A stretch of DNA of 34,863 nucleotides, from positions 1-34,863 of the forward strand of contig JARFRN010000283.1 in assembly GCA_029287195.1 (NCBI GenBank). Reading direction: 5' to 3'. This DNA is from Acidimicrobiia bacterium (lineage in GTDB: Bacteria > Actinomycetota > Acidimicrobiia > Spongiisociales > UBA5794). This document shows, one piece after another, positions 23,326 through 25,303 of this stretch. A program made the position numbers and the translations under genes. The notes beneath the pieces were generated by a model, which worked only from the letters and a program-made list of their open reading frames with translations, was not told the origin of the DNA and ran no database searches. How positions within the stretch are numbered: position 1 is the stretch's first letter; each line of letters opens with the position of its first letter.

Positions 23326-23340
23326 GGAGCCGCAGACTCC
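23326..23340. repeat. Third copy of the 15-nt hairpin-like element
   Basis: GGAGCCGCAGACTCC resembles GGAGGTGCAGTCTCC (7452-7466) at 12 of 15 positions, with GGAG and CTCC arms conserved. It lies between the convergent DUF1684 and DsrE-like genes, touching the DsrE-like stop codon. This is the same kind of location as the pair at 7380-7466, so it may act as a short bidirectional terminator. Confidence 0.4.
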
Positions 23341-23852
23341 TAGACGAATAGTTGCACGTCGGCGTCTGCGGCAAAATCGAGGAAAGCCGTTGCGCCTGCA
23401 ATGTCACACCCCTCGATCAAGTCGGACTCATCGACACCCATGACGCCCATCGTGGTGGCGCATGCAAAGAAGCGCACCCCGAGTCCCTGGGCCATCTCTA
23501 TGAACTCGGGCAGGTCCGGCATGCTGGCCTTCTTCATCCAGCTCTTCATCACCTTGGTCGCGGCGGCGGTCGCGCCGGGTACCGCACCGAGCAGATTGGG
23601 GATCTTGATCGGGCCCGCAGGGTTGGCCAACGAAGCTACCCGCAGCTTCTCGAACCGGTCCTGGTGGAGTATGTCGAGACCGTAGAAGGTGAAGTAGATG
23701 CCAACTTCCCATCCCAGACTTGCAGCCGTTGTCGCCAGAATGAGTGGCGGGTAGGCCTGATCCAGTGTGCCTTTCGAAGCTACCAGGGCAAGTCGTTTGG
23801 GCTTCGGCTCAACGCCACTGTCTGTTGCCGCCTCTGATGCTGGGAGCGTCAT
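23340..23852 (-). CDS. DsrE/DsrE2-like sulfur relay protein
   Basis: This 170-residue protein is of the DsrE/DsrF/DrsH-like family (DsrE2A-type, often called peroxiredoxin-family). It begins after a short polar tail with LALVASKGTLDQAYPPLILATTAASLGWEVGIYFTFYGL, the conserved fold start. The conserved Cys131 is in FFACATTMGVMG. Such proteins accept persulfide sulfur from TusA. ATG overlaps the tusA stop by four bases. It is the last gene of the cysteine-attenuated operon, which points to handling of sulfane sulfur tied to cysteine supply. The exact acceptor is unknown. Confidence 0.88.
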   Translation of the reverse strand: MTLPASEAATDSGVEPKPKRLALVASKGTLDQAYPPLILATTAASLGWEVGIYFTFYGLDILHQDRFEKLRVASLANPAGPIKIPNLLGAVPGATAAATKVMKSWMKKASMPDLPEFIEMAQGLGVRFFACATTMGVMGVDESDLIEGCDIAGATAFLDFAADADVQLFV

Positions 23853-24106
23853 TGCTTCGTGCCCTTTTCAATCCAGAAGCGCTGGGTGCCGTTCAGGTCT
23901 TCGCTGGCGACGAGGGTGTCTCCACGCTGGCGTGCCATCGCAGGAATGTCCTGCAGCGAGCCGGGATCGGTACAGATCAGTTCGAGGACCTGGCCCGGCT
24001 CCAGTCTGCCGAGCACCATCCCGGCTTTGTAGACGGGTAGGGGGCAGAGCAGCCCGCTGGTGTCGAGCGTCTCGTGTGTATTGGGGACGTCGGTCTGTGT
24101 TGTCAT
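23849..24106 (-). CDS. tusA: TusA-family sulfurtransferase
   Basis: This 85-residue protein has the TusA fold and catalytic CPxP motif: LDTSGLLCPLPVYKAG with Cys21, followed by LEPGQVLELICTDPGSLQDIPAMARQRGDTL. It carries persulfide sulfur between a donor and acceptors such as DsrE-like proteins. The ATG at 24106 has AGAGAGGAACG upstream; the frame continues further but only as an artefact over the cysteine synthase end. It is 13 nt after the cysteine synthase stop and overlaps the DsrE-like gene, so the three form one transcript controlled by the upstream attenuator. Confidence 0.92.
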   Translation of the reverse strand: MTTQTDVPNTHETLDTSGLLCPLPVYKAGMVLGRLEPGQVLELICTDPGSLQDIPAMARQRGDTLVASEDLNGTQRFWIEKGTKQ

Positions 24107-24119
24107 GCTCGTTCCTCTC

Positions 24120-25115
24120 TCAGATCTGGGGCTGACCCTCATCGCCGAGGATGTGTTCGAAGTAGCTGGTGTACTTGGTGCCGGAGTCGGGCGATATCCC
24201 GACGACGATTTTGCCGTGGTCATCGATTTGCCTGATGCCGTGCACTACTGCGCCGGTAGAAGGCCCGACGATCAGGCCCTCACGTCGGTGCAGTTGTTTG
24301 GTTGCCTCGTAGGCGTCCTCGTCGTCGACCCGGAGCACATCGTCAATCACGTCCCAGTCGAGGATCCCCGGCTGCTTCGCCTCCTGGAAGCTCTTGAGCC
24401 CGGGTAGCCGATGGCCCGGCTGCGGCTCGACCGCGATCACCCGAATCGCCGGATTGCGCTCCTTGAGGTAGCGGCCAACGCCCGTGATCGTCCCGGTCGT
24501 GCCGAATCCGGCCACGAAGTAGCTGATTCGGCCCTCTGTCTGTCGCCAGATCTCCGGGCCTGTGGTCTCGTAGTGAGCGCGCACGTTGTCCTCGTTCTCG
24601 TACTGATTTGCCAGGGCGAAGCGCGAACCACCGTCCTGCGCCGCGATAGAACGCGCCAGCGCGATCGCTCCATCCTTGGGGTGATCGACCGGGCACAAAT
24701 CGTCCGGGGTTTCCCAGACCTCAGCTCCCAGCATCCGCAGCATCGTCCTTTTCTCTGCAGGTACCTCGGAGGGAATGGTTACGGTCAATGACTTCCCGGC
24801 AAGCGCGGCCAAAGCAGCCAGTGCGATCGCCGTATTTCCCGACGATGCCTCAACTATGTCCCGCCCCTCGAGATCGCCGCGCTCCTGCATGCCCGCCATC
24901 AAATAGGTGGCCGCACGGTCTTTCAACGATCCGAACGGATTGAGCCACTCCAGTTTGAGGTAGGCGGTGATTTGGTTGCCGGCCACAACCTGGTTCAGCT
25001 GCACTAGCGGCGTCGGATTGTCGACGTCCGGCAGGAGCTGGCGGATGTCCTCATAGCGGCGCACGCTTCGATCGGTCTCGAGCGGCTCCACTTCTGAGGT
25101 AACTGTTGTTGTCAA
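24120..25115 (-). CDS. PLP-dependent cysteine synthase family protein
   Basis: This 331-residue enzyme is of the CysK/CysM/CBS fold-type II family. It condenses an activated serine (O-acetyl- or O-phosphoserine) with sulfide or a sulfur carrier. The PLP lysine is Lys65 in NPFGSLKDRAA, the substrate loop is EASSGNTAIALA, the phosphate cup is GFGTTGTITGVG, and VGPSTGA is near the C-terminus. The N-terminus is longer than in E. coli CysK, as in several actinobacterial paralogues. The start is TTG at 25115 with GGGAG 6 nt upstream; no in-frame ATG is suitable. It is the first structural gene after the poly-Cys leader. Acyl-acceptor specificity (O-acetylserine versus O-phosphoserine) cannot be read off. 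Confidence 0.92.
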   Translation of the reverse strand: MTTTVTSEVEPLETDRSVRRYEDIRQLLPDVDNPTPLVQLNQVVAGNQITAYLKLEWLNPFGSLKDRAATYLMAGMQERGDLEGRDIVEASSGNTAIALAALAALAGKSLTVTIPSEVPAEKRTMLRMLGAEVWETPDDLCPVDHPKDGAIALARSIAAQDGGSRFALANQYENEDNVRAHYETTGPEIWRQTEGRISYFVAGFGTTGTITGVGRYLKERNPAIRVIAVEPQPGHRLPGLKSFQEAKQPGILDWDVIDDVLRVDDEDAYEATKQLHRREGLIVGPSTGAVVHGIRQIDDHGKIVVGISPDSGTKYTSYFEHILGDEGQPQI

Positions 25116-25129
25116 TCTGTACTCCCATC

Positions 25130-25161
25130 AAAAAACCCGCAACGGCTGTTGCCGTCACGGG
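25130..25161 (-). terminator. Rho-independent terminator of the cysteine attenuator
   Basis: On the minus strand an 11-bp stem (CCCGTGACGGC with GCCGTTGCGGG, including two G-U pairs) and an AACA loop are followed directly by six T residues. It lies 28 nt after the leader ORF stop and just upstream of the cysteine synthase ribosome binding site. The left arm can alternatively pair with CGCGGG at 25204-25209 inside the leader ORF, giving an antiterminator. Confidence 0.85.
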
Positions 25162-25188
25162 TGGTGGCCCTCTTCTGGTGGTGGCTTG

Positions 25189-25266
25189 CTAGCTAGCGAC
25201 GTACCCGCGCGGCAGTGTGTTGCTGGGACAGCAACAACACGCGGCGGCGGCTAGGTCGTATCTCAT
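25189..25266 (-). CDS. Poly-cysteine leader peptide (attenuator uORF)
   Basis: This 25-codon ORF starts ATG AGA TAC and ends TAG, with four consecutive Cys codons at positions 10-13 (25228-25239). The Cys codons sit in a 7-bp hairpin (TGTTGCT/AGCAACA). It ends 73 nt before the cysteine synthase start, with a terminator between. A promoter (TTGACG, 16 nt, TACGCT) puts the start site within about 0-2 nt of the ATG, so it should be leaderless. Leaderless poly-cysteine ORFs acting as cysteine-responsive attenuators are known in mycobacteria. I infer that stalling at Cys codons when charged tRNA-Cys is low frees the downstream leader to form an antiterminator. Confidence 0.88.
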   Translation of the reverse strand: MRYDLAAAACCCCPSNTLPRGYVAS

Positions 25267-25275
25267 TGGGGACGG

Positions 25276-25303
25276 AGCGTAGTCGTCTCGGAGGTGTCGT
25301 CAA
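25276..25303 (-). promoter_or_regulatory. Promoter of the cysteine operon
   Basis: TTGACG (25298-25303 on the minus strand) and TACGCT (25276-25281) are separated by 16 nt. The -10 ends 9 nt before the leader ATG at 25266. This is one of the best sigma-70-type matches in the window and fixes a near-zero-length 5' leader for the peptide. Confidence 0.65.

Follow-up and report, generated by a model that had tools for sequence, protein, structure and literature searches.

The window analysed here (34,863 nt; contig C26 of an Acidimicrobiia draft genome of 3.59 Mb in 305 contigs) carries on its minus strand, as read directly, a promoter, a cysteine-rich leader ORF, an intrinsic terminator and a three-gene operon headed by a cysteine synthase-like gene. 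Judged from its sequence, this element is highly likely to be a ribosome-mediated transcription attenuator with charged tRNA-Cys as its signal, and the leader device would very probably turn on the cysteine operon under cysteine shortage. Such an attenuator had been proposed in a sequence-only reading of this DNA, and comparison with relatives supports the interpretation, as leader, antiterminator arm and terminator are conserved together; the response to cysteine is a prediction from this arrangement.

Layout of the leader and its operon

The first gene of the operon starts with TTG at 25115 and encodes a 331-amino-acid cysteine synthase-like PLP enzyme of the CysK/CysM type (24120–25115, minus strand; PF00291, 4e-70), for which the best NCBIfam match was TIGR01136 (cysKM, 8e-79, under the curated cut-off). 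It is followed by genes for a TusA-like sulfur carrier (23849–24106, minus strand; PF01206, 6e-19) and a DsrE2-like sulfur carrier protein (23340–23852, minus strand; PF13686, 2e-42; NF047629, 2e-43, under cut-off), the latter overlapping tusA by 4 nt. These matches confirm the gene order given in the earlier reading (cysteine synthase, tusA, DsrE-like gene). In most homologous loci, TusA and/or DsrE2 were also found downstream by a simple motif search.

Transcription is predicted to start from a −35 box, TTGACG (25298–25303, minus strand), and a −10 box of the TANNNT type, TACGCT (25276–25281, minus strand), separated by a 16-nt spacer, with the −10 box lying 9 nt 5′ of the leader ATG (25266). 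A strict sigma-70 consensus scan of the region returned zero promoters, because TACGCT agrees with TATAAT at only three of six positions, and the promoter call is based on the TANNNT form, which is conserved: TANNNT occurs 4–10 nt 5′ of the leader start codon in 34 of 34 homologous leaders, and TTGAC recurs in several of these (L002–L005, L007 and L013) and in the metY copies described below. The 9-nt spacing implies a 5′ leader of about 0–3 nt, which suggests that the leader ORF is near-leaderless. The boxes claimed earlier are present, although missed by the strict scan, and leaderlessness, claimed along with them, is deduced from the spacing.

The leader ORF, MRYDLAAAACCCCPSNTLPRGYVAS (25189–25266, minus strand), has 25 codons, including the four consecutive Cys codons TGT TGT TGC TGT (25228–25239, minus strand) that would form the sensor; both features were read directly and are as first described. 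No other run of at least four Cys codons occurs in any of the six reading frames of the window, and shuffling gives an expectation of 0.12 such runs per window. Cys-rich homologues were found at 34 loci, where Cys accounts for 172 of 798 leader codons (21.6%) versus 54 of 10,805 (0.5%) in the downstream genes. Codon choice differs as well, with TGT to TGC at 95 to 77 in the leaders versus 12 to 42 in the operon first genes (Fisher p = 2e-5). As in trp-type attenuators, therefore, the leader ORF is rich in codons for the product amino acid of its operon. The Cys codons of the window also lie within a hairpin (25252–25218, minus strand), in which UGUUGUUGCUG pairs with CAGCAACA and which is lengthened by Ala codons; this is likely a 1:2 hairpin that would favour termination if the leader is untranslated.

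Between the leader ORF and the first gene lies an intrinsic terminator, a further trait of trp-type attenuators. The hairpin CCCGTGACGGC-AACA-GCCGTTGCGGG (25161–25136) comprises 11 bp and the loop AACA, and is followed by the T tract TTTTTT (25130–25135, minus strand, read directly), which bears out the previously noted terminator with six T residues. It was ranked as the best terminator of the region by pattern scan and folds at −19.7 kcal/mol (z −5.2), a value equalled by none of 200 shuffles. Its 3′ arm, region 4 (25136–25146, minus strand), was identified by pattern scan, folding and covariation with region 3, whereas region 3 itself (25151–25161, minus strand) is common to terminator and antiterminator. 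The alternative partner of region 3 is region 2, the 5′ antiterminator arm GCCGCGCGGG (25204–25213, minus strand), which starts 17 nt downstream of where the last Cys codon begins. Region 2 (25213–25204) pairs with CCCGTG-A-CGGC (25161–25151) around one bulged A, and this duplex reaches −22.6 kcal/mol including closing pairs, with none of 500 leader-tail shuffles as good. The hexamers originally picked out as a candidate antiterminator (25204–25209 with 25156–25161) were correct, and the pairing extends 4 bp further. The mutually exclusive antiterminator of a trp-type device is thus present in complementarity and spacing, with only a partial preference at equilibrium. Neither hairpin includes the Shine-Dalgarno-like GGGAG (25122–25126, minus strand) that precedes the first structural gene. 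Searching Rfam release 15 at gathering score gave zero matches in the window.

Conservation within one order

A protein-alignment search of 84,980 species genomes placed the nearest relatives of the window protein in Acidimicrobiia MAGs (74–86% identity). Among 41 related genomes, 17 close orthologs were found (66–100% identity), and all 17 carry the element (example leaders: MKYVATAAACCCCQNSTLPRGKADS, MNYSTTDAYCCCCCCAAPRGRLDC and MTNHSSAVVVCACACACAASPRGQ). Loss of the Cys codons in relatives had been set beforehand as an observation that would refute the attenuator; the codons are conserved, with a Cys-rich leader at every close ortholog. Twelve of 13 more distant paralogs lack the element, and the thirteenth (L029) is preceded by a Cys leader and terminator of its own. 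This leader, MSMFTHRRCPSCCCDFPAGERCCRP (G012:C143), belongs to an unrelated cysteine synthase and lies about 185 nt 5′ of the start of the matched gene; a close ortholog of the window's enzyme was not found in that genome. No Cys leader was found at orthologous genes of Planctomycetota, Deltaproteobacteria and similar lineages.

The search upstream of homologous operons, as suggested at the outset, yielded a set of 34 loci (close orthologs of the related genomes plus loci from named genomes) in which the whole layout is kept, including the terminator and antiterminator arms. The antiterminator arm starts at most about 20 nt from the last Cys codon throughout this set. With E < 1e-4 as the threshold, a covariance model of the element (R1) matched 43 of 395 class genomes, every one of them from the order to which the window belongs; three of the 43 (G002, G006 and G037) have the metY copy only. 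Among 396 genomes sampled phylum-wide, a set that overlaps in part with that of the class, the best matches outside the order were not attenuators of this kind. These (L142–L146) are without a comparable Cys leader and were taken as chance GC-rich hairpins, and weak in-order matches inside coding sequence (L136, L138 and L139) were not credited. Strong matches are thus restricted to one Acidimicrobiia order among about 790 class and phylum genomes.

Several results point to selection at the RNA level. By its best 7-nt register (uncertain in a few loci), the antiterminator arm falls in frame 0 at 20 loci, in frame 1 at 13 and in frame 2 at one; these differing frames show that it is conserved as RNA rather than as the Pro-Arg-Gly it often encodes. 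Regions 2 and 3 form 198 of 238 possible pairs with their own partners versus 190.2 (sd 2.0) when partners are permuted, a level reached in none of 5,000 permutations. On the 34-row alignment, whose statistics were computed without correction for shared ancestry, the terminator is paired in 83.8% of cells, with a covariation score matched by none of 500 shuffles, and the antiterminator in 81.8%, versus 28–48% when slid. Covariation of the antiterminator is modest on the same uncorrected alignment (22 of 500 shuffles reach its score), and when loci are taken singly, regions 2 and 3 pair better than shuffles (p < 0.05) at only 18 of 34.

Proposed switch and alternative explanations

The predicted switch depends on where the ribosome stands. 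When Cys-tRNA is scarce, the ribosome would stall on the Cys run and leave region 2 free to capture the emerging region 3, so that polymerase could enter the cysteine synthase-tusA-dsrE2 genes. When Cys-tRNA is plentiful, it would reach the stop codon and mask part of region 2, the 3:4 hairpin would form, and transcription would end at the T tract. If no ribosome were present, the leader would fold on itself and the terminator would form too. A ribosome covers about 13 nt downstream of its A site; with this footprint, a stall on any of the four Cys codons frees 25213–25204, and a ribosome at the stop codon covers about half of this segment.

We folded only the exposed RNA, with the ribosome at set positions, for the 34 loci. 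For a ribosome positioned on the Cys codons and a transcript that does not yet include region 4, the mean probability of upstream pairing by region 3 is 0.73–0.81 (0.86 for the window in either stalled state). Once the ribosome is at the stop codon, the mean probability of the terminator is 0.95; for the window it is 1.0, whether the ribosome is at the stop codon or absent. At equilibrium, a stall on the first Cys codon of the window gives the antiterminator 0.65 versus 0.24 for the terminator, and with a stall on the last Cys codon the antiterminator no longer dominates. Across the 34 loci, the stalled-state terminator averages 0.70–0.80 at equilibrium, with values near zero in several species. 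As the terminator wins at equilibrium in most stalled states, we infer that antitermination must be kinetic. Kinetic switching is usual for attenuators.

Stalling might instead alter access to the downstream ribosome-binding site and leave termination unaffected. Such translational attenuation is how the closest characterized leaders, the poly-Cys leaders of Mycobacterium smegmatis (Canestrari et al. 2020), are described as acting in later papers (PMC9031893; PMC13236596), and Mycobacterium poly-Cys leaders are reported without terminators (PMC1262725). Here, however, a strong conserved terminator with its T tract stands between leader and gene, neither hairpin takes in GGGAG or the start codon, and the spacing between terminator and gene ranges from 11 to 107 nt over the 34 loci, so we regard this alternative as improbable. 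It is very unlikely that the leader ORF acts by shielding Rho loading sites, with the hairpin incidental, as has been proposed for terminator-less mycobacterial cys leaders (PMC1262725). Rho control needs no hairpin and T tract, and their conservation therefore counts against it: a terminator with a stability of at least −11 kcal/mol, five T in eight and a position no more than 75 nt from the leader stop was found in 30 of the 34 homologous leaders versus two of 680 Markov-shuffled sequences, at a near-constant distance from the stop codon (45–64 nt from leader stop to terminator end over 34 loci). Finally, the hairpin is strong enough to end a transcript alone, but a constitutive terminator of an upstream transcript beside a chance short ORF is barely credible, as the upstream neighbour, a luciferase-like monooxygenase gene, points the other way, and the Cys codons are conserved together with the terminator, with leader, arm and terminator kept at 34 loci.

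Sister copies and known systems

The covariance model gave a second match in the window's genome (L120; G000:C48:1089-1185, minus strand), ahead of metY, encoding O-acetylhomoserine sulfhydrylase (the metY copy in G001 scores 705 bits to TIGR01326). All seven genomes of the genus have this attenuator layout at metY, as do three more of the order (L120–L126, L128, L132 and L137). Its leaders carry Met/Cys sensor codons (MMCM), like MRNVTTTRMMCMASYEPCGSVA, with a −10 box 7–10 nt upstream, and in these copies GAGCCGTGCGG can pair with CCGCACCGGCTC.

Other leaders were observed in the order. The Cys leader MKKSCAANCMPYCCPTRCGEVSA and a terminator precede an ATP-grasp (RimK-like) gene at two loci (L127, G358:C173; L135, G354:C292). 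In one genome, a Cys leader lies before tusA-dsrE without the synthase (L129, G105:C130), where shuffles do as well as the predicted antiterminator, and another lies before an OsmC-like gene (L130, G105:C152). A leader with Tyr/Phe codons and a terminator, MRCRYFFAYVFTGRHARADAR (L131, G020:C168:21559-21656), precedes DAHP synthase-chorismate mutase and is a possible aromatic amino acid attenuator. Upstream of ilvB in the genus (L155–L159, in G000:C9 and relatives) is a short leader ending LVLID or similar, separate from the Cys design, with the terminator CCCTCC...GGAGGG and T6; it represents the type of branched-chain amino acid attenuator that is usual in actinobacteria. No such leader was found at trpE in the genus. 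Upstream of leuA (L163–L169), a highly conserved block, CTTAGGTAGCCGGGCAACCG...CGGTTGACCCGGC, differs from the Cys design and is perhaps related to the published LEU element.

Cys leader peptides lacking terminators have been reported for B. longum (before cbs) as well as for Mycobacterium and P. acnes (before cys operons), in a study that predicted the mycobacterial poly-Cys leaders (Seliverstov et al. 2005, PMC1262725). Because the actinobacterial Cys leaders reported since 2005 have lacked a terminator, their mechanism stayed open. As later papers describe them, the mycobacterial poly-Cys leaders share with the present element a leaderless short ORF with consecutive Cys codons before cysteine genes in actinobacteria, and theirs are cysteine-responsive; they differ in having no intrinsic terminator and acting on translation, whereas terminator and antiterminator are conserved here. 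Leaderless leader peptides with hairpins and a U-rich terminator, as found here, are known from leuL2, trpL1 and ilvL of Streptomyces lividans; unlike here, none of the eight attenuators reported there is for cysteine, and the Met/Cys-rich metL ahead of metNIQ is without a typical terminator (PMC8079986). Tandem Cys codons in a leader ORF and a terminal U run are also found in the uORFC-8-2 motif ahead of cysS in Rhodobacterales, a predicted Cys-tRNA attenuator with a terminator, although that motif belongs to Alphaproteobacteria, has two Cys codons and controls cysteinyl-tRNA synthetase (PMC8632094). The ilvB1 leader of M. tuberculosis likewise combines regulatory codons with mutually exclusive terminator and antiterminator, reporter-tested in that case, but senses branched-chain amino acids (PMC13236596).

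Each element thus has precedent and the device is not a new principle. The combination of leaderless ORF and terminator is already known from the Streptomyces leu, trp and ilv leaders (PMC8079986); the novelty lies in a cysteine version that bears a terminator, in the conservation of this version across the order and in the sister copies at metY and at other genes. No precedent for the combination of elements seen here, the order-wide conservation or the metY sister was found in the open-licence literature, which is weak evidence.

In this one lineage, an order of uncultured actinobacteria, a classical attenuator is found complete, with each of its parts conserved. Poly-Cys leaders can therefore plausibly act at the level of transcription, and the translational version in mycobacteria is a natural point of comparison. 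A metY attenuator that uses Met/Cys codons is a further addition, and cysteine supply becomes linked to an operon of unusual make-up (cysteine synthase, TusA and DsrE2). There is perhaps an even chance that a single design (near-leaderless leader, GCCGYGCGGG arm and CCCGCACCGG terminator) was copied to several sulfur genes with its sensor codons swapped (Cys at cysM-tusA-dsrE2, Met/Cys at metY, and Cys at the ATP-grasp and OsmC-like genes), forming an RNA regulon that is programmed by codons and serves sulfur amino acids. If so, this regulon would do the work that is done by protein repressors or SAM riboswitches elsewhere.
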